The notes beneath the pieces were generated by a model. The model had not been told where the DNA came from and ran no database searches. It saw only the letters and a list, made by a program, of their open reading frames with translations. Both the position numbers and the translations under genes were made by a program. DNA of 64,000 bases from Pseudovibrio brasiliensis (GTDB lineage: Bacteria > Pseudomonadota > Alphaproteobacteria > Rhizobiales > Stappiaceae), in the NCBI RefSeq assembly GCF_018282095.1, contig NZ_CP074126.1, positions 4,562,341-4,626,340 on the forward strand. Reading direction: 5' to 3'. Below are positions 10,543-36,472 of this stretch, one piece after another. The first letter of the stretch is position 1. Each line of letters begins with the position of its first letter.

Positions 10543-10861
10543 GTGATCTGGCACACTTTTGCGCCGAAAGCCGCAATAAACCTCATTTTTTGATGCCTCG
10601 GTGAGAACTTGTCAGCTTATCGGAAGCTGAATTGCGTTCTTTTTCCGGCAAAATCTATCAAACCAACCAACCTAGACAAGAAAAAAGCGTTCTCGACTAA
10701 ATACTTAGCAGTTTTTTGGCGAGATGGTTTGAAATGACACAAAAATAGGATAGAAGAGCGCATCTTTCATTAGAGAAAAACCAGATTGAAGGAATGGCGT
10801 GGATCGGGCACCTCATGATCCTCCCACACGCCGCGACTTCCTATGGCCAGACGGAGCCTCC
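10543..10861 (+). other. Long leader region before typA
   Basis: 319 bp without a convincing gene. A possible sigma-70 promoter is TTGAAA .. TAGAAG around 10731-10758. The last 60 nt hold GGATC..GATCC and GC-rich arms that could fold over the typA ribosome binding site. Nothing more is supported. Confidence 0.3.
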
Positions 10862-12679
10862 ATGAAACTTCGCAATATTGCGATCATCGCCCACGTTGAC
10901 CACGGCAAGACAACCCTGATCGACGTCCTGTTGAAGCAGTCCGGCGTCTTCCGCGACAACCAGCGCACCGAAGAACGCATGATGGACTCCAACGATATCG
11001 AGCGTGAGCGCGGCATCACCATTCTGGCGAAGAACACTTCGCTTGTATGGAAAGACACCCGCATCAACATCGTTGACACCCCAGGCCACGCCGACTTCGG
11101 CGGTGAAGTTGAGCGTATCCTTCACATGGTTGACGGTGTTGTCCTGCTCGTTGACGCAGCTGAAGGCCCAATGCCGCAGACCAAGTTCGTACTTGGTAAA
11201 GCGCTGAAGCTTGGCCTCAAGCCAATCGTCGCGATCAACAAGATCGACAAGCCTGAGCAGCGTGCTGACGAAGTGCTGGACGAAGTGTTCGACCTGTTCG
11301 CATCTTTGGATGCAAACGAAGAGCAGCTCGACTTCCCAGTCGTCTACGGTTCTGCAAAGCAAGAATGGATGTCTCTTGAGCCAACAGGCCCACAGGACTC
11401 CATGGCTCCACTGTTCGACATGATCCTCGACAAAGTGTCCGAGCCACAGGCTGAAGAAGGTGAATTCCGCCTCCTGGCAACCACCATCGAATCCGATCCA
11501 TTCCTCGGTCGCATCCTCACAGGCCGCATCGCTTCCGGCGTTGCCAAGCCAAACATGGCTGTGAAGGCCCTGTCCCGTGATGGCAAGCTGATCGAAACCG
11601 GTCGTATCTCCAAGGTTCTCGCATTCCGTGGCCTTGAGCGTCAGGCAATTGACGAAGGTGAAGCAGGCGACATCGTTTCCGTAGCTGGCCTGACAAAGGC
11701 AACTGTTGCTGACACCATTGTTGACCCGCAGGTCACTGAGCCAATTCAGGCACAGCCAATTGATCCGCCAACCCTGTCCATGATGTTCCGCGTGAACGAT
11801 GGTCCTCTGGCAGGCACCGAAGGCTCCAAGGTTCAGTCCCGCGTTATCCGCGAGCGTCTGCTGAAGGAAGCTGAAGGTAACGTTGCACTGCGCGTTGAAG
11901 AAACCGACGAACCAGATGCATTCATCGTTTCTGGCCGCGGCGAACTTCTGCTCGCGATCCTGATCGAAAACATGCGTCGTGAAGGCTTCGAGCTTTGCGT
12001 TGGCCGTCCACGCGTTGTTTATCAGGAAGATGAAGCAGGTAACCGCCTTGAGCCAATCGAAGAAGTTATCATTGATGTTGATGACGAGTTCTCCGGTGCT
12101 GTTGTTCAGAAGCTGACCGAGCGCAAAGCAGAACTGCTTGAAATGCGTCCGTCCGGCGGTGGTCGTACACGTCTCGTGTTCAACGCACCAACCCGTGGTC
12201 TCATCGGTTATCAGGCAGAACTGATGTCTGACACCCGTGGTTCTGCAATCTTCAACCGCGTATTCCACGAATACGCACCGTACAAAGGTCAGATCCAGGG
12301 TCGCCACACCGGCGTTCTGCTGTCCAACGGTCAGGGCGAAGCAGTGGCCTACGCACTGTTCAACCTGGAAGATCGCGGTCCAATGATGATCGATCCGGGC
12401 ACCAAGGTGTATCAGGGCATGATCGTAGGTGAGCACACCCGCGGCAACGACCTTGAAGTGAACGTTCTGAAGGGCAAGCAGCTCACCAACATCCGTTCTG
12501 CAGGTAAGGACGATGCAGTTAAGCTGACCACCCCAATGAAGCTGAGCCTTGAAGGCGCGCTCTCTTACATCTCAGAGGATGAGCTGGTGGAAGTTACTCC
12601 AGAATCCATCCGTCTGCGTAAAGCGCTGCTCTGCCCGCATGAGCGCAAACGCGCTGAGCGTGCTGCAAAAGCAAGCTAA
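10862..12679 (+). CDS. typA: Ribosome-associated GTPase TypA/BipA
   Basis: 605 aa, full length for TypA/BipA, a translational GTPase that binds ribosomes under stress and at low temperature and helps 50S assembly. G-domain motifs: [10 protein letters not shown] (P-loop), ERERGITI (switch I), DTPGHADFG (G3), NKIDKP (G4), GSAKQ (G5). Domains II, III, V and the BipA-specific C-terminal domain ([18 protein letters not shown], then [20 protein letters not shown]) follow. ATG at 10862 has GGAG 5-6 nt upstream, better than an in-frame upstream GTG at 10799. Highly biased codon use suggests strong expression. Confidence 0.96.
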
Positions 12680-13860: not shown

Positions 13861-14309
13861 TTCAAAAAACTTATTCCCCTCGCTCAAAACCTCCTTAAGC
13901 TTGTTCTCGTGCCCACGCATTCGGGCAGGAGTGGACCGTCCATTCCGTGGCGTGGGTGGGGTTGGGCTACCGGCATGAGGTAACGTATCGTGTCGGGAGG
14001 TCCGGTGAAGCGCCATACCCTATTGAGACCACAGTGGTAGTAGGGAGCTTGGGGTCGTTCCGGAGGGCGTCCGGTGGTGACAGGAAACTGTCAAAGGTAT
14101 GGAAGCGCATCTGTAATGCGCAAACGTGCCTGTCGCGTCTGTTCGAGAGGGAGCCCGCGTGTTCATGATAAAAGGCCCGGGCGAGGCGAACAGCCAATGC
14201 CGAAGAAACATACCTAACAAGTAGCGCAGGCAGAGCCTGTTCGCCTTGCTCCACCCGTTTTCGCGGGAACTTTCAGCGCCAACACTGCATGGATTGCCAT
14301 GCGGTGCTA
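13861..14309 (+). ncRNA. Candidate large structured RNA / mobile element, copy A
   Basis: About 449 bp with no credible gene, closely matched by 33666-34153 on the opposite strand (copy B). Conserved 5' block (13909-14008): GTGCCCACGC pairing with GCGTGGG and an inner TGGAC/GTCCA hairpin. Variable middle: GCGCCATACC near 14010 can pair with GGTATGG..GCGC near 14097-14108, and a GACAG GAAA CTGTC hairpin is present. Conserved 3' block (14172-14309): GAGGCGAAC pairs with GTTCGCCTT, CAGGC aga GCCTG, CCCG..CGGG, and a final GCATGG/CCATGC hairpin ending in GGTGCTA, 3 bp short of the sodC stop codon. Function unknown; a mobile or repeated RNA is most likely. Families such as HEARO/IscB guide RNA were considered but not established. 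Confidence 0.5.
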
Positions 14310-14312
14310 AAA

Positions 14313-14921
14313 CTACTTGGTGTCGCTCACTGGCTCTTCAGGGTAGCTCTGGAAGCCATCTGCATTTTGCGTCACAGGCACAATCACCCCGCAGGCAATC
14401 CGCCCACCCGCATCACCCGTTGGCTGGCTGTGATAGTCATCAGGGTCCGCATGCACAATCAACGCCCTGCCCGGCCCACCAATCAGGCTGTCCGGATCAT
14501 CAGGCGCAAGGTCGAGCCTCTCCGTAAAGTACTCCACCACAAGCTTCCCGTTTTCCGGCACATGCAGGTTCGGCAAATCACCCGCATGCGGTCCACCGGC
14601 AACGCCAACGCCATGCTCATTCCCTTCCGGCGCAAAGTGCCCGCCCGCAGCTGAGAAGGTTGGCTCACAAAGGCCTGTCTCATGCACATGGAAGCCGTGC
14701 ACCCCAGGAGGAAGCCCATCAAACGAAGCGGTGATGTGAAGGATGTGGCTCGGTGTTTCTGTCAACACCACCCGGCCAACCTGCTTGCCATCCGCGTCTT
14801 TCATGACAGCAACAGCAGTTGGACCAGCGGGAACTTGATCCTCTTTCGAAGCCATCGCAGCAAAACTCGCAACAGCAAACCCGGCTGCAACAACAGCTGC
14901 CAATCCACTCAGCTTCATCAT
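14313..14921 (-). CDS. sodC: Periplasmic Cu/Zn superoxide dismutase
   Basis: 202 aa with an N-terminal signal peptide (MMKLSGLAAVVAAGFAVASFAAMA). Dismutates superoxide in the periplasm. Copper/zinc ligands and family signatures: GVHGFHVHETGLC, GGHFAPEGNEHG, GGPHAGDLPNLHV and the C-terminal GDAGGRIACGVI, with two cysteines for the structural disulphide. ATG at 14921 is 8 nt after AGGAG; a longer frame to 15014 lacks a site. The structured element copy A ends 3 bp beyond its stop codon. Confidence 0.94.
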   Translation of the reverse strand: MMKLSGLAAVVAAGFAVASFAAMASKEDQVPAGPTAVAVMKDADGKQVGRVVLTETPSHILHITASFDGLPPGVHGFHVHETGLCEPTFSAAGGHFAPEGNEHGVGVAGGPHAGDLPNLHVPENGKLVVEYFTERLDLAPDDPDSLIGGPGRALIVHADPDDYHSQPTGDAGGRIACGVIVPVTQNADGFQSYPEEPVSDTK

Positions 14922-15059
14922 CCAATAAACTCCTGAAAGCGCTTCATTCACTCTCAGAGTATTCAGCGGCGAGGCCACCTCAAAATCACTCTTGAAACCT
15001 CGGTAAACCAACACCGCCTGCCCTGATAAGAAGTTGATTGGTCTTGGTTACAACTCCAA

Positions 15060-17203: not shown

Positions 17204-18085
17204 TTAACGGACTGCGTCTGCTTCACTATCAAATTCATCATCTAGGTCAAGCGGCGCGGGGTATCCACCGACATATCTAAGTTTATCCGGCGTCGCCTCA
17301 GCAGTTTCAAAGAAAGTCGCCAGCTCTTGCTCGGATATATTCCCCGGAACAGCTAATAGCGCATCTACGCCTTCAAAGCTGCGATAAAAACTCAACACTT
17401 CTATACCTTTGTGCATCAATGAGCCCGGTATAGCCCCAGTCCAGCGCACATCGTAAACGCAGATGTCCGGCTTCTCCGTCTCTGCGGTCTGCGCAGCAAC
17501 AACAACAGCTGGCAAGTCTGCCGGACGATCCTGAACCACCAGAAACGGGAGCCGTGCAATAATCGATGGACCGTTTGAACCATCCTCACGCAACCCCAGA
17601 CCACGCCACCAGGGTGTTTCCGCACGCTCATCCAGCGCGATCACGCCAAGATCCACCTGTGAATAATCAACCTCCGCAAGCACAGCAGAAGGGTCGATTT
17701 CGCGCCGCTGCTCAATCGCATATCCAAAATAGAACCGCGCCAGCTCACTCATGGCGACTCGATCTGCACTTCCATCAAGATGAACACGATAAGTTGTCTG
17801 GGCTTTGGTCAGCGAAGAGATTATCTCACGCCAGATATGTTCCAATGACATAATTGGCAGAACACCCCGGTGGTTCTCAACCAGCCGCCGCATAATGTCT
17901 GCTTCACGAGATGGACGGAAAACAGCATGCATAGAACCTTGTTCAGCTTTTGCCGCAACAATATGCTCAATCAGGTCCGCCCGTTCCATGAGCAAGGCAT
18001 GGAGTTTGTCATCAACTTCATCCAGTTTATCGCGGACTTGAGACAAGCTCATTTTAGTATCCGTAACTGATGAAGACCCAGACAT
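17204..18085 (-). CDS. Chorismate mutase (AroQ) with long C-terminal extension
   Basis: 293 aa. Residues about 10-95 are an AroQ alpha-helical mutase: LSQVRDKLDEVDDKLHALLMERADLIEHIVAAK, RPSREADIMRRLVENHRGVLP, LEHIWREIISSLTKAQ. It converts chorismate to prephenate. About 190 further residues (RVHLDGSADRVAMSELARFYFG, VAAQTAETEKPDICVYDVRWTGAIPGS) have no signature that I can name, though such extensions recur in alphaproteobacterial homologues. First gene of the mutase-hisC-tyrC operon, divergent from metX. The ribosome binding site before ATG 18085 is weak (GAGTGGG far upstream); ATG at residue 12 is a possible alternative. Confidence 0.85.
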   Translation of the reverse strand: MSGSSSVTDTKMSLSQVRDKLDEVDDKLHALLMERADLIEHIVAAKAEQGSMHAVFRPSREADIMRRLVENHRGVLPIMSLEHIWREIISSLTKAQTTYRVHLDGSADRVAMSELARFYFGYAIEQRREIDPSAVLAEVDYSQVDLGVIALDERAETPWWRGLGLREDGSNGPSIIARLPFLVVQDRPADLPAVVVAAQTAETEKPDICVYDVRWTGAIPGSLMHKGIEVLSFYRSFEGVDALLAVPGNISEQELATFFETAEATPDKLRYVGGYPAPLDLDDEFDSEADAVR

Positions 18086-18255
18086 TGCACTAACCCACTC
18101 GAATTATTGAACAGAACCTATGTAAATTCATAGGAAACAACGCGGATGAAAGCAAAAGAAAACGTTGACACACTGCCAATAGACACCTAGCAAAAACTCT
18201 CTTGCAATCCCTTAGAGGAACACCCAATTCGCTTTCACGTACCTTGGAAGAAAAC

Positions 18256-19485
18256 ATGACTGAGACTGCCAGCGCACAGCCGGAGAAAACTCCGATTACC
18301 TCGCCCTCAACACAAGCCAGTGTTGCAGCGGAGCAGATGGATATGCCTGCCAGCAAGCTCATGCGATTTGGACCTGAAAACCCTCTCAGGCTGGATGAAG
18401 GCACAGAACTTGCGCCTTGGCAGATCGCCTACGAAACATATGGCGAGCTCAATGCTGACAAAACCAATGCCATCCTCGTATGCCACGCCCTCACCGGCGA
18501 CCAGTACGTTGCCTCCGAAAATCCGGTAACAGGCAAGCCGGGCTGGTGGTCCATGATGGTTGGTCCGGGTCAACCAGTAGACACCGACAAGTACTTCGTT
18601 ATTTGCGCAAACGTACTCGGCGGCTGCCTCGGCACCACAGGCCCTGCATGTACCAATCCGGAAACTGATGAAGTCTACGGACTGGATCTTCCGGTTGTCA
18701 CCATCGGTGACATGGTGCGCTCCCAGGCAAAACTGGTAGAAGCGCTCGGCATTGAAACCCTGTTTGCAGTGGTCGGCGGCTCCATGGGCGGCATGCAGGT
18801 GCTGCAATGGGCTTCTGCTTATCCGGAAAAGGTGTTCGCTGCGGTTCCTATCGCAACCGGACCACGCCATTCCAGTCAGAACATCGCCTTCCACGAAGTT
18901 GGTCGTCAGGCTGTGATGGCAGATCCGGATTGGTGCCACGGCCAGTACGCCAAAGAAGGCAAACGTCCTTTGAAGGGCTTGTCCGTTGCGCGTATGGCAG
19001 CGCACATCACCTACATGTCTGACGAAAGCCTGCACAACAAGTTTGGTCGCAACCTGCAAGACCGCTCTGCCATCACCTTCGGTTTTGATGCGGACTTCCA
19101 GATCGAGAGCTATCTCCGCCACCAAGGTATGACCTTCGTGGACCGCTTTGATGCAAACTCATATCTCTATGTGACCCGCGCGATGGACTACTTCGACCTC
19201 GCAGCAGCACATGGCGGCAAGCTGGCCAACGCGTTCTTGCACAGCGACACCCGTTTCTGCGTCATGTCCTTTACCACCGATTGGCTTTTCCCAACCTCGG
19301 AAAGTAAGGATATTGTACGCGCCCTCAACGCAGCCGGAGCAAACGTCTCCTTCGTCGAGATCGAGAGTTCTCGCGGACACGATGCATTCCTTCTTGATGA
19401 ACCTGAATTGTTCAAAACAATGCGTGGCTTCCTAACCGGAGCTGCCAAAGCCAGAGGCATCCCTGCCCCCAGCAATGGTGATTGA
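18256..19485 (+). CDS. metX: Homoserine O-acetyltransferase
   Basis: 409-aa alpha/beta hydrolase-fold acyltransferase; first committed step of methionine synthesis. Motifs: [22 protein letters not shown], nucleophile elbow [14 protein letters not shown] (Ser), late Asp in [12 protein letters not shown] and His in [14 protein letters not shown] at 18256 follows GGAAG; an in-frame start at 18202 lacks one. Pairs with metW immediately downstream, as in most alphaproteobacteria. I looked for a SAM-II riboswitch in 18086-18255 and saw none. Acetyl versus succinyl specificity cannot be settled by eye. Confidence 0.94.
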
Positions 19486-19528
19486 CCGTAGTCTTGAACA
19501 ACCAGCTTCATCAGAAAGCAGATCTATT

Positions 19529-20152
19529 ATGACAAAACTTGATTTGAGTGATGTACGCGGCGACCACCGAATTCTCTGCGATTTTGTAGCACCGGGCTCT
19601 CGTGTACTGGATATCGGCTGCGGCACAGGAGAGCTGTTGGAACTCCTGATCGACACGCGCGGCGTTGATGGCCGTGGCTTTGATACATCCCAGAAAGGCG
19701 TGAACGAAGCCGTTGCTCGCGGCCTCTCTGTTGTTCAGGGCGATGCAGACAACGACCTTGCTGCCTATCCGGACGACGCGTTTGATTATGCAATCCTAAG
19801 CCATACCCTTCAGGCCACCATGGACCCGAAACAGGTTCTTGAGCAGCTGCTACGCATCGGCAAAAAAGTCGTTGTATCCTTCCCAAACTTCGGCCACTGG
19901 CGCAACCGCATGCAGTTGCTCTTCAAAGGCAGAATGCCAGTCACCGACTATCTGCCTTACGAATGGTACGACACACCAAACATCCATTTTTGCACAATCC
20001 GAGACTTTGTTGCTCTCTCAGAAGAGGTCCATGCTAAAGTCATCAAGGCAGAAGCGCTGGATGCAAGAGGCCAGCGTATAGGGTTTAACGCACCATGGTG
20101 GGTTTGGAACCTGATCGGCGATCAGGCTGTCTTCCTTCTGGAGCGAAAATAA
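19529..20152 (+). CDS. metW: Methionine biosynthesis protein MetW
   Basis: 207 aa, SAM-methyltransferase-like fold. Motif I SRVLDIGCGTGELLELL, then GRGFDTSQKGVNEAVARG, LVVQGDADNDLAAYPD and SFPNFGHWRNRMQLLFKGRMP, which is characteristic of MetW. Works with MetX in homoserine acylation. I use ATG 19529; an ATG at 19475 overlapping the metX end by 11 nt is possible. The binding site is weak in both cases, consistent with coupling to metX. Convergent with a methyltransferase gene 7 bp downstream. Confidence 0.92.
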   Translation: MTKLDLSDVRGDHRILCDFVAPGSRVLDIGCGTGELLELLIDTRGVDGRGFDTSQKGVNEAVARGLSVVQGDADNDLAAYPDDAFDYAILSHTLQATMDPKQVLEQLLRIGKKVVVSFPNFGHWRNRMQLLFKGRMPVTDYLPYEWYDTPNIHFCTIRDFVALSEEVHAKVIKAEALDARGQRIGFNAPWWVWNLIGDQAVFLLERK

Positions 20153-31208: not shown

Positions 31209-31226
31209 TCTATACAAGAACCCGAC

Positions 31227-31279
31227 CCTTTAGCTACTTGTTTAACGTGGTTGCAAGCCGGTCGACCAAATCACCACGG
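31227..31279 (-). promoter_or_regulatory. SAM-II riboswitch aptamer controlling metZ
   Basis: On the minus strand the segment carries the SAM-II consensus in order: CCGTGGTGATTTG, the GACCGGCTTGCA block, CCACGTTAAACAAGT and GCTAAAGG. The P1 stem CGTGGT/ACCACG and the 3' strand that forms the H-type pseudoknot are present. SAM-II binds S-adenosylmethionine and lowers expression of methionine genes in alphaproteobacteria. Here a terminator follows, suggesting control of transcription. Confidence 0.92.
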
Positions 31280-31290
31280 AATAGGCAGCG

Positions 31291-33640: not shown

Positions 33641-33665
33641 GCTGACATCCTGTCACAAACACCAA

Positions 33666-34153
33666 TAGCACCGCATGGCATCCCATGCAGTGGTGAGGCT
33701 GAAAGTCCCCGCAAGGCGGGTGGAGCAAGACGAACAGGCTGAGCCTGCGCTACTTGTTAGAAATGAGTCTTCGGCAACAGCTGGTCGCCTCGCTCGGGTC
33801 TTTTAATATGGACAACATCGCCTCTTATCCTGAAAGACACGATGGCCAGTTTCCTGGAAAGACAAAGCTGCCCTCGCAACGGGTTTCCCCAAGAGCAAAA
33901 GCTCTTTGCCTCTGGCATTCACCGCTCTGACCAGTAAATGCCACCGCTTGATGCCCTTCAGACTTGGGCCCTTCCTCCCAGACCATGCGGTCACGCCTGA
34001 AAATCGGTTCCACCGGACAACCGAAAGATGCGTTACTTCTCCCGAAAGCCCAACCCCGCCCACGCCGCGAGATGGACGGTCCACCCCGGCCCGATTGCGT
34101 GGGCACACAACAAAGATAATGCCGCTAAGTAGGAGGGGGATAAGTTTTCTAGA
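33666..34153 (-). ncRNA. Candidate large structured RNA / mobile element, copy B
   Basis: Minus-strand counterpart of 13861-14309. Read 5' to 3' from 34153: AAACTTATCCCCCTC, then at 34106 GTGCCCACGC..GCGTGGG with the inner TGGAC/GTCCA hairpin, then a variable middle with its own hairpins (GGCATT..AATGCC, AAGAGC..GCTCTT, CCAG GAAA CTGG), then the conserved 3' block GAGGCGA..TCGTCTT, AACAAGTAGCGCAGG, CAGGC tca GCCTG, CCCGC ctt GCGGG and the terminal GCATGG/CCATGC hairpin ending GGTGCTA at 33666. Longer than copy A because of the middle. Lies 26 bp downstream of the 136-aa gene's stop. No nuclease or transposase gene is adjacent. A 158-codon frame crosses it but is not conserved in copy A. Confidence 0.5.
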
Positions 34154-34208
34154 CCCCTCGTATCCTGACCACCGCCAACCAGCATGCGATGCAGGAGCCT
34201 CCCCAGCA

Positions 34209-34249
34209 CTGGATACCAGATCTCCGCTTCGCTCCGTCCGGCATGACGA
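34209..34249. repeat. Dispersed intergenic palindromic repeat, type 1
   Basis: CTGGATACCAGATCTCCGC followed by TTCGCTCCGTCCGGCATGACG: I recognise this as the short repeat found at many intergenic sites in Hyphomicrobiales-type genomes (reverse complement CGTCATGCCGGACGGAGC). Adjacent to copy B of the structured element. Confidence 0.6.
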
Positions 34250-34304
34250 CGGGGCATAAAGCACAGTCCTCAGCGACATTCACTCAGAAAATGCCCTCTC
34301 TCCG

Positions 34305-34333
34305 ACGTCATCCCTGACTTGATCAGGGACCCA
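34305..34333. repeat. Dispersed intergenic palindromic repeat, type 2
   Basis: CGTCATCCCTGACTTGATCAGGGACCCA with the arms TCCCTGA and TCAGGGA. Same family as the unit at 36316-36346 but inverted; such units are frequent between genes in alphaproteobacteria. Confidence 0.6.
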
Positions 34334-34535
34334 TAACCCCTTGAGTTTGTGGGTTAACAGAACACATCCCACAAAGAACATGCCCTAAATCCAACCCTCA
34401 CAAACGTATCCATCCACGCACACAAAAACGCTGGCCTGCGGGCAAGAGGCGCCCGGCCGCAGACCAGCAGGACACTCATGAAGGGCTGTGCAAGGGTAGG
34501 TAGAGACCAGCCCTTGGAGTGCCGATCACAGTGAT

Positions 34536-34742
34536 CTAATCCAGAGACACAATATTGGTGTTGACCGGTTTAGGAGAGGCGACGCTGCGTGTCGCGCTGT
34601 CGGATGCTCCTCTAGGGGAGAAGGTGCCAAGCAACTCATCACGCTCACAACTGTTCTTCATCCGCCCGCACAGCACCAGATGTTGCCAGTAAGCAAGGCT
34701 CTGAAGATCAGAAACAGCAATTGCTAAGTACTTAACCCAAAA
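34536..34742 (-). pseudogene. Possible gene remnant, no proper start
   Basis: A 68-residue open stretch reads FWVKYLAIAVSDLQSLAYWQ then HLVLCGRMKNSCERDELLG and ends PKPVNTNIVSLD before a TAG. The composition looks protein-like but the frame opens directly after a TGA, has no ATG before residue 28 and no ribosome binding site. It may be the end of a decayed gene or chance. The rest of 34334-34894 holds an imperfect hairpin GCTGGCCTGCGG..CCGCAGACCAGC near 34430-34470 and otherwise AT-rich sequence with nothing I can name. Confidence 0.25.
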
Positions 34743-34894
34743 TCAGCACCCACACACCAAACAGCATGAATACATCTCACTCATATCATTAAGTAGATTA
34801 ATTAATTCAATCTATTGGCTCCAGATAACAATTGCAGCCACTAACACCATCTACTTACTATTAGATTCAGATTTTATTATTTCATGAGGGCAAT

Positions 34895-36262
34895 ATGTTT
34901 AATCCTGCGGATAACCTAAAATCTGGAGACAAAGCTCGTCTTTTTCCGGTTCTTTCAGAAAACTCCAAAGAAGGGCGAGCACTATCTATTCTTCTTTCAT
35001 GCCTTCAAAACATACCTGAATTTGGTCAAGCTATGCTTGCTGACCTCGGTATCCGAATCGGCGCTCGCACGAAGATCGAGACTTACACTGAAGTCGTGTT
35101 TTCCGACGGAAAAAGCGAGAGCAAACTTAGGCCTGACGGACTTATTGTAGTCAAGACAGGTTCTAGAATCTGGACTGCTCTGGTGGAGGCCAAGATCGGC
35201 AATGCTGATCTGGATTCTTCACAAATCGAGAGCTATATAGACATTGCGAAAGCGAACAAAATCGATGCTGTAATAACAATTTCCAACCAGTTTGCTCCAC
35301 TACCATCGCACCATCCACTCACTGTTTCAGCCGCAACCAGAAAGAAAGCTGAGCTTTATCATTGGTCATGGATGTATGTGCTCACAGAAGCCTCGCTGCT
35401 ACTCCAAGGTGATATGATTGAAGATCTAGAGCGACGGATTATCATCAACGAATTTGTTCGCTTCCTTACTCATACCAGCGCTGGAATTAAAAGCTTCACG
35501 CAAATGCCTGCTTCATGGACAACAATCGTTTCAGCAATCCAAGCAGGTGGTGCAATTTCTCAAAACTCAGAAGATGCGAAGGAAGTTATCGGCGCTTGGC
35601 ACCAAGAAGCCAGAGATTTGAGTTTGATCTTAAGTCGGCAACTTGGTCGCGATGTGAATATCAAAACGACAAGAGCACATGCCATTGACCACCAAGCACG
35701 CATAAAATCTGATCTTCAAAAGCTCTCTGTAGAAACCCGCTTGGAAACCACGCTGTCAGTACCAAATGCTGCAGCACCCGTAGAAATATGCGCTGATTTA
35801 CAGACAAAATCTATCAGTGTTTACATGCGCTTAAAAGCTCCTGAAGACAAGAAGTCGACAAAAGCGCGCACGAACTGGCTACTCAGACAGTTACAGTCAG
35901 CAGAACCTGCAAATCTACACATTCGCCATTTTTGGCCGGGCAGAGGACCGTTTGCCCAACATTCTCTTAGTGACCTGCGACAAGACCCAAGCCTCGCATT
36001 TACAGAGAAGCCCAATGCCGTTGCATCTAGCTTTGAAGTGGTGATGGTCTGTGATCTAGGCGGAAAGTTTTCCCAACGGAAGAACTTCATCAGTGAGCTC
36101 GAGAGGATTGTTCCGGAGTTTTATGAACAAGCCGGACAGAACTTAAAAGCGTGGCAACCGCCAGCGCCACGTTTGAAAGAGAATAAAACAGAAGCAGACA
36201 ATGTTAGTCCTCAAGCACTCGCAGAAGCTGCCAATAGTGCAGAATTTGAAACGACAGAATAG
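34895..36262 (+). CDS. PD-(D/E)XK-nuclease-like hypothetical protein (455 aa)
   Basis: Not assigned to a named family. Residues about 78-135 carry a candidate PD-(D/E)XK core: KLRPDGLIVVKTGSRIWTAL, VEAKIGNADLDSSQIESYI and DAVITISNQF, i.e. D..E-x-K with a following Q-x3-Y helix, as in restriction or recombination nucleases. The remaining 300 residues are helical and end in an acidic tail (ENKTEADN). ATG follows GAGGG at a spacing of about 6. The gene is more AT-rich and uses codons (ttt, tca, aaa, att) unlike its core neighbours, and lies alone between dispersed repeats, so recent acquisition is likely. A defence or DNA-processing role is possible but is only inference. Confidence 0.65.
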   Translation: MFNPADNLKSGDKARLFPVLSENSKEGRALSILLSCLQNIPEFGQAMLADLGIRIGARTKIETYTEVVFSDGKSESKLRPDGLIVVKTGSRIWTALVEAKIGNADLDSSQIESYIDIAKANKIDAVITISNQFAPLPSHHPLTVSAATRKKAELYHWSWMYVLTEASLLLQGDMIEDLERRIIINEFVRFLTHTSAGIKSFTQMPASWTTIVSAIQAGGAISQNSEDAKEVIGAWHQEARDLSLILSRQLGRDVNIKTTRAHAIDHQARIKSDLQKLSVETRLETTLSVPNAAAPVEICADLQTKSISVYMRLKAPEDKKSTKARTNWLLRQLQSAEPANLHIRHFWPGRGPFAQHSLSDLRQDPSLAFTEKPNAVASSFEVVMVCDLGGKFSQRKNFISELERIVPEFYEQAGQNLKAWQPPAPRLKENKTEADNVSPQALAEAANSAEFETTE

Positions 36263-36315
36263 AACATCGAGAAGTTAGAATGCTTCGCTATCTTCTGTTT
36301 CAAAAAGCCACTTCC

Positions 36316-36346
36316 GTCTGGATCCCGCATCAAGTGCGGGAAGACG
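36316..36346. repeat. Dispersed intergenic palindromic repeat, type 2
   Basis: GTCTGGATCCCGCATCAAG followed by TGCGGGAAGACG: arms TCCCGCA and TGCGGGA. Same architecture (TGGATCCC..ATCAAGT..GGGA.GACG) as the unit at 34305-34333. Located between the PD-(D/E)XK-like gene and the gamma-glutamyltransferase gene. Confidence 0.6.
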
Positions 36347-36472
36347 GCAGTGGACGACTAGCTTGTTGTTCTACAAAGATCCGCGCCTCACTAACATTGA
36401 AACACACAAGCATCCAGAGCAACTCCAACTGGTCACTCTGGAAACTCATCAAAGTCAGCAAAACATCAGCAC

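Follow-up and report, generated by a model that had tools for sequence, protein, structure and literature searches.

Results

Two copies of a repeated element in the window

The window (the whole 64,000-nt stretch of the Pseudovibrio brasiliensis genome analyzed here) holds two copies of a repeated element, copy A (~13866-14321, + strand) and copy B (~34148-33650, − strand), which are two of the genome's 27 copies. The upstream neighbor of locus A is typA/bipA (10799..12679, +; Pfam, tblastn), and sodC (14313..15014, −; Pfam Sod_Cu) lies downstream, convergent with copy A. The neighbors of the two copies comprise a FA_hydroxylase gene, sodC, a 455-aa gene and a 136-aa ORF, the last two without a family. 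The 455-aa gene, beside copy B (34895-36262, +), had no match in Pfam, PADLOC or NCBIfam. It falls within a segment (34063..36460) that does not align with P. denitrificans and that includes, in its first ~85 nt, the start of copy B in diverged form. Elsewhere in the window, an Rfam scan placed a SAM_alpha riboswitch at 31210-31287 (−).

An earlier note on this DNA had described the two copies as matching base after base at their ends around a differing middle. The repeat pair is real: read on its reverse strand, copy B resembles copy A at both ends and is unrelated to it in the middle. 'Base after base' overstates the match, as the 5' domains are 81% identical (107 nt compared) and the 3' domains 84% (141 nt). 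The unit limits given there (13861..14309) also shift slightly: a promoter-like box starts the unit at 13866, and it ends near 14321.

Copy A (all +) begins with the box AAAACTTATTCCCC (13866..13879), which is conserved across the four main middle classes as well as beyond the genus, followed by a −10-like hexamer, TAAGCT (13896..13901), 26 nt from the start of the box's CTTAT. The 5' domain (13911..14003) is predicted to form four helices: P1 (13911-13918/13950-13957), the P2 hairpin with loop ACCGT (13928-13946), P3 (13964-13968/13999-14003), and the P4 hairpin with loop GTAACG (13970-13997). A variable middle (14004..14170), assigned to class 1 by clustering and by a class-1 alignment, leads into the 3' domain (14171..14252), whose long arm (14181-14193/14237-14249) has the apical loop GCCGAAGA...AACAAGTAGCGCAGG. 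A CCCG..CGGG hairpin (14254..14267), recognized from sequence and fold and kept by eye in most copies of this genome, precedes the terminal hairpin CACTGCATGG/CCATGCGGTG and its tail (14283..14321), which is terminator-like without a strong T run and overlaps the sodC stop codon (14314-14316). Among the pairings proposed in the earlier note, the 5' stem (here GCCCACGC/GCGTGGGT), the hairpin inside it (TGG/CCA), the long arm (GAGGCGA..TCGCCTT), and the CCCG..CGGG and terminal hairpins are present.

Copy B (all −) has the same layout, with the box AAAACTTATCCCCC at 34135..34148, the −10-like sequence TATCTT at 34118-34113 (placed with the spacing survey below), a 5' domain at 34010..34110 with P1 from 34104, a class-0 middle at 33804..34009 (from clustering), and the 3' domain with terminal hairpin at 33650..33803 (E 1.2e-47; also a 3' model match). 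Together with ~490 bp upstream, copy B (33650..34641) is 99.1% identical over 992 bp to another copy, L007 (C1:4360506), whose 99% identical element represents it in the 5' alignment.

Covariation supports a conserved RNA fold

For the 5' domain, 27 base pairs were examined in an alignment of 36 diverse copies drawn from Pseudovibrio and further genera. The alignments and counts exclude duplicate loci of one place, L089 (5' score 17.3, coding-like), and L146 and L078, where the 5' profile found no 5' domain. In this alignment 95.2% of cells are paired, and 23 of the 27 pairs show double compensatory changes, amounting to 150 compensatory cells against 43.1 in shuffled alignments (none of 500 reached the observed count) and 18-51 in slid controls. 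The 3' arm behaves similarly, with compensatory changes in 8 of 15 pairs (38 cells vs. 12.5 shuffled; 0/500). Compensatory changes thus exceed the shuffled and slid controls, as expected of a conserved structured RNA.

One local hairpin fared less well. The CAGGC/GCCTG pairing that the earlier note proposed is formed in 97.2% of cells, yet it has no compensatory change, whereas the extended arm has them in three of nine pairs; we therefore do not count it as a supported helix and place AACAAGTAGCGCAGG in the apical loop of the extended arm. The same motif had been thought wholly unpaired between helices; it does lie in the loop, except that its last GG is paired. For the terminal hairpin, whose place is conserved and whose inner stem varies among the copies of this genome, no double-sided change was counted there in the six outer pairs.

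Folding energies agree for the conserved parts: z = −4.0 for copy A, −5.0 for its 3' domain (14170-14310), and −2.9 and −2.0 for two arms from another genus. In L080, a stretch covering the middle and some of the arm gives z = +1.55, no better than its shuffles. Because many of the pairs are G-U, we assign the RNA to the + strand for copy A.

The RNA has no match to any Rfam 15 family. Neither the copies in the window nor those at 13 loci, nor those at five loci scanned at E ≤ 1 (two of them for a second time), gave a match, copy A returning only sub-threshold ones (E 1.1-3.7), and a known Rfam family was rejected as its identity at both gathering and relaxed thresholds. The HEARO model did not match and no IscB-type ORF is among the neighbors of copies A and B, which sets aside the HEARO/IscB omega RNA; the Domain V/VI models of group II introns were likewise without a match in the Rfam scans.

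A family-restricted RNA family, multicopy in large Pseudovibrio genomes

A BLAST search with the 3' block placed it 26 times in the 6.03-Mb genome (best non-self E 2.6e-48). From 25 of these places we built a 3' covariance model, which returned 37 rows, of which 27 are distinct copies, all on the 4.84-Mb contig C1, and the other 10 are opposite-strand overlaps. In related genomes this model matched 14 of 16 from the genus and 33 of 87 from the family, in 5 of 7 genera, the weakest of these matches being possibly due to chance. Row counts, which include some opposite-strand rows, are 28-30 in six large-genome congeners including this one (29 rows for its 27 copies), 23 in two others, 9-10 in three and 0-3 in five with small genomes; matching genomes of other genera have 1-4 rows each. 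With the 5' model and stricter filters, 7 of 397 genomes of the order matched, all among the 20 drawn from the same family.

A sequence-pattern scan of genome contigs yielded at least 120 stretches, and we tested 37 of the 80 listed with both models, together with 19 viral ones. Four of the 56 are real (two from P. exalbescens, one from Roseibium and one from a Labrenzia MAG), which gives no sign of a wide spread beyond the family. A Mesorhizobium stretch (L305) matched part of the 3' model at 14.4 bits (E 0.01) without a 5' match and was set down to chance. Carriage by plasmids or phages was also rejected: copy A had no blastn match in plasmid or phage collections, and neither model supported any of the 19 viral stretches at E < 0.1. 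Among the genomes and stretches tested, matches to the predicted RNA were found only within the family of the source organism.

Three outcomes that the earlier note had named as speaking against a large structured RNA (absence of copies in related genomes, absence of significant covariation, and a common Rfam family) were each examined, and none came out against it.

Each unit starts with a promoter-like sequence

Units follow one order: box, 5' domain, class-specific middle, 3' arm, CCCG hairpin, and terminal hairpin with a weak T tail. In this genome they measure 428-520 bp, with predicted RNAs of 384-476 nt and middles of 65-198 nt. Copies start with the box AAAACTTATCCCC, followed by ~20 variable bases and a TAnnCT-type hexamer. 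The box ACTTATCCCC precedes this −10-like hexamer by 26-27 nt, and the distance from the start of CTTAT falls in that range in 109 of 122 boxed copies, five copies with no box or too little sequence having been left out of the count. The 12-mer AAACTTATCCCC occurs 23 times in the genome, 20 of them at element copies, and its reversed control not at all. Among the three occurrences outside the element, one stands before a gltX-like ORF (by eye; C1:2623567) and one, on contig C2 (470038), keeps the element's spacing. Because box and spacing also occur outside the element, together they look like a promoter type, predicted to be of an unusual kind. A generic sigma-70 scan did not recognize the region, and a generic terminator scan did not call the terminal hairpin. 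Reading ACTTATCCAC as a DnaA box was dropped, since the Pseudovibrio form does not have the ACA end that belongs to the DnaA-box motif.

Positions are mostly inherited and middles are exchanged

Twenty-five of the 27 copies share their downstream flank with one of 26 copies fetched from P. denitrificans, and L178 has its counterpart in a further P. denitrificans copy, so that 26 of 27 have a counterpart. The remaining copy, L016, had no flank match in P. denitrificans. The converse, that every P. denitrificans copy has a counterpart here, proved wrong: L143 matched by its flank only through a small cassette described below. At the corresponding site in P. brasiliensis, which is 95% identical downstream and carries the same cassette, ~540 bp of unrelated DNA (C1:984092-984631) stands in place of the element, between the cassette and the downstream flank. 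Presence of a copy is therefore not fixed.

Locus A adjoins typA directly in P. axinellae, with no hydroxylase gene between, and the same adjacency (typA 87-88% identical; tblastn) recurs in two genomes from a different genus of the family; this gene order suggests that locus A is old. In one genome (G006) the hydroxylase gene and sodC are 131 bp apart and the element is absent, the sequences being too diverged to define a junction; neither of the two element-less sites is therefore a clean empty site. Taken together, the flank comparisons show positions that are mostly stable and appear to be old in the family. The earlier note's alternative of a non-autonomous mobile element draws weak support from these data: the shared positions and the shared typA locus stand against it, and one absence speaks for it. 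The copies do exchange sequence among themselves, and the DNA adjoining them is very mobile.

Clustering 127 middles gave 15 clusters, four of which (49, 27, 17 and 14 members) hold 107. In class-1 middles, GNRA-type hairpins of ~19 nt (TGACAnGGGAAnCnTGTCA) are repeated in tandem, and their number varies. Among 108 downstream-orthologous pairs, 19 differ in middle class, although these are not independent and represent about six loci. Locus A illustrates the exchange: its middle is class 1 in P. brasiliensis, P. ascidiaceicola, P. denitrificans and P. japonicus, and class 2 in Pseudovibrio sp. Ad37 and sp. Alg231-02, where both flanks are conserved except for ~80 bp just upstream of the box. 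The alignments thus show swaps of middle class at fixed loci, from which we infer that copies recombine. Such swaps could also reflect allelic transfer between species in place of ectopic conversion.

DNA turns over beside the copies

We compared 1-kb flanks at the 102 of 107 loci with enough flank. Between P. brasiliensis and P. denitrificans, both flanks are conserved in 12 pairs, the downstream flank only in nine, and the upstream flank only in three (one of these three non-orthologous). At nine of the 21 downstream-anchored loci, the DNA immediately before the element has given way to unrelated DNA of 0.02-5 kb. Upstream synteny resumed in all eight of the nine that were extended (up to 20 kb), and the gaps beside the element measure 20-4641 bp in P. 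brasiliensis and 229-3461 bp in P. denitrificans. Across ~135 kb of these stretches, eight gaps of at least 200 bp adjoin the element and four lie elsewhere, a background rate drawn from eight stretches chosen for having a gap, in one species pair and with intergenic sequence unmatched. Within these stretches, the comparison shows DNA replaced more often beside copies than elsewhere.

Homology starts within 3 nt of the box in three of the nine pairs, inside the element in two, and 38-156 bp upstream of the box in four, and no junction among them proves homologous recombination. By eye, the short/filled junction at L017 has no repeated core or direct repeat. Turnover is not confined to the upstream side. 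Insertions directly follow the terminal hairpin at locus B in Pseudovibrio sp. Alg231-02 (1.4 kb) and P. ascidiaceicola (~0.76 kb), a 1.4-kb insertion lies just after L178 in P. denitrificans, and the flank comparison found downstream changes at L014 and L018, so we gave up a strict upstream-only rule.

The cargo differs from place to place and from genome to genome. At locus B there is the 455-aa gene in P. brasiliensis, a small cassette in P. ascidiaceicola and sp. Alg231-02, and almost nothing in P. denitrificans. This small cassette, a 123-158-aa ORF with DDTACACGATNTLQNEIDEV and a conserved, GC-rich, structured-looking leader, had no Rfam or Pfam match. It adjoins the element at four loci and is present in those four genomes and in sp. 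Ad37. P. brasiliensis carries it at the L007 locus (C1 ~4361250-4362100) and at the element-less site (984632-985417); the cassette therefore does not need the element. Directly upstream of copy L185 (C1 ~4099760-4102810) are CBASS-like phage-defense genes, an HNH-SAVED effector and a cyclase split into two ORFs, and in P. denitrificans RmrT and RmrA defense genes (L194; G004:C17 ~17900-19700) lie beside the counterpart of the copy at C1:4641764. Other cargo ORFs include an amidohydrolase and, by eye only, TetR, MarR, EamA and Sel1-type genes. No integrase was noticed among the cassette ORFs listed, some of which were scanned. Palindromic repeats, GTCATCCCGG...CCGGGATGAC, occur upstream of many copies (e.g. 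window ~34230-34370, −); flanking the cassettes, they may be the left anchor of exchange.

Discussion

We judge it somewhat better than an even chance that the element is a new family of structured-RNA genes whose copies provide the homology that anchors the exchange of cassettes. The comparisons show an RNA family with a predicted fold and strand. According to our model, this RNA is old in the family and would have been amplified to ~27-30 loci in the large-genome Pseudovibrio. Because the copies are repeated and alike, and because their middles have been exchanged, they may supply portable homology. DNA that ends in a copy, whether incoming or ectopic, would recombine with a resident copy, and the event would be completed either by illegitimate joining or in the palindromic repeats of the flank, exchanging the middle of the RNA and the adjoining cassette together. 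Alternatively, the true anchors could be the palindromic repeats that adjoin many of the copies. The RNA itself would probably act in trans as a dosage-amplified structured RNA, given its own promoter-like sequence, its conservation across differing neighbors and its amplification.

Other explanations are taken here in descending order of probability. The element may be a non-autonomous mobile element, MITE-like or a palindromic relative of IS200/IS605, whose ends would form single-stranded DNA hairpins for a transposase acting in trans. Twenty-seven dispersed, gene-less copies with discrete ends at the box and terminal hairpin, neighbors that differ between genera, the recent 990-bp duplication shared by L007 and copy B (L008), and the P. 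denitrificans copy missing from its matching site here all fit this reading. It remains unlikely, as nearly all copies have counterparts in P. denitrificans and L016 matches by no flank at all, the sole presence/absence site has unrelated DNA in the element's place, and locus A beside typA is common to another genus. Moreover, G-U pairs favor an RNA made from one strand, promoter spacers differ between copies whose RNA is nearly the same, and no terminal inverted repeats or target duplications were seen by eye.

We are more doubtful that the ~27 RNA genes form a dispersed docking system, in which either the RNA or the DNA of its gene, folded or transcribed, would actively promote the insertion and exchange of cassettes beside each copy, anti-phage systems among them, while gene conversion keeps the sites alike. 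Its probability is slightly reduced by the finding that the small cassette and the element do not always go together. It is also improbable that the element is a dedicated integration site where a site-specific recombinase would act on the element end or on a folded single strand, as at attC or tRNA genes. In its favor, three of the nine pairs have homology starting no more than 3 nt from the box, the small cassette recurs next to the element at four loci, and insertions abut the unit on either side; the L017 junction, where no core or direct repeat was seen by eye, the cassette at an element-less site, and the lack of a noticed integrase among the cassette ORFs listed argue against it.

There is little to recommend a cis-acting RNA of the neighboring genes, an antisense transcript combined with a bidirectional terminator. 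Copies A and B do each sit between two ORFs that run codirectionally on the other strand, and the terminal hairpin comes just past the convergent stop, but neighbors vary by locus and the upstream ones change, while conservation of the 5' and 3' domains extends over different loci and genera. We also regard it as very improbable that the RNA is the guide or template of one of the known protein-dependent elements (IscB/TnpB omega RNA, retron or DRT RNA, or a group II intron remnant), of which the earlier note had considered the IscB guide RNA and group II intron pieces. A large folded RNA that has a variable segment would be in keeping with this, but no Rfam family matched, the cassettes vary on either side, and no neighboring gene was seen to be constant.

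Returning to an RNA gene family whose copies anchor exchange, structured RNAs without an assigned role are a known kind. OLE, GOLLD and ROOL are large structured bacterial RNAs whose role is unknown or partly known (PMC12286853). The present element resembles them in its length of hundreds of nucleotides, its elaborate covarying fold, the lack of a noticed ORF and its narrow phylogenetic range. OLE, GOLLD and ROOL usually occur in one or a few copies, and GOLLD and ROOL often with phages. In contrast, this element is chromosomal, has ~27-30 copies in each genome of the amplified clade, swaps its middles, and, unlike GOLLD and ROOL, showed no phage or plasmid match for copy A. Genes for tRNA, tmRNA and small RNAs serve as island attachment sites, and the element likewise is an RNA gene at the border of variable DNA; it differs in that both sides vary, at many loci at once, and that no recombinase or att repeat was noticed. 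Integron attC sites are folded, with conserved ends and a variable middle, and lie beside exchangeable cassettes, all of which holds for the element too. Unlike attC, it is several times longer, dispersed rather than arrayed, equipped with promoter-like sequence and mostly inherited vertically. Finally, 6S RNA (RF00013) is also a structured RNA gene of Alphaproteobacteria, but this genome has a separate 6S gene, its single match to that family (C1:4006927-4007086). What sets the element apart is its copy number, its interchangeable middle and its link to cassette turnover.

Titles and opening parts of abstracts in the literature searched contain no description of the element. Passages of two Pseudovibrio genome comparisons (PMC5959193, PMC4811931) mention genomic islands and likewise do not describe it; 'noncoding' or 'non-coding' occurs in neither, 'hotspot' and 'small RNA' do not occur in the former, and 'intergenic' and 'synteny' do not occur in the latter.

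The family adds to the bacterial repertoire a large, family-restricted structured RNA that lies outside Rfam 15, is unusual in its copy number and contains an internal module that can be interchanged. Whether an RNA gene merely sits at a hotspot or makes the hotspot is now a directly testable question. For Pseudovibrio, the element would provide a sequence-defined mark for the places where accessory DNA enters, including CBASS and RmrTA genes, and new copies would therefore point to where undescribed cassettes may lie.
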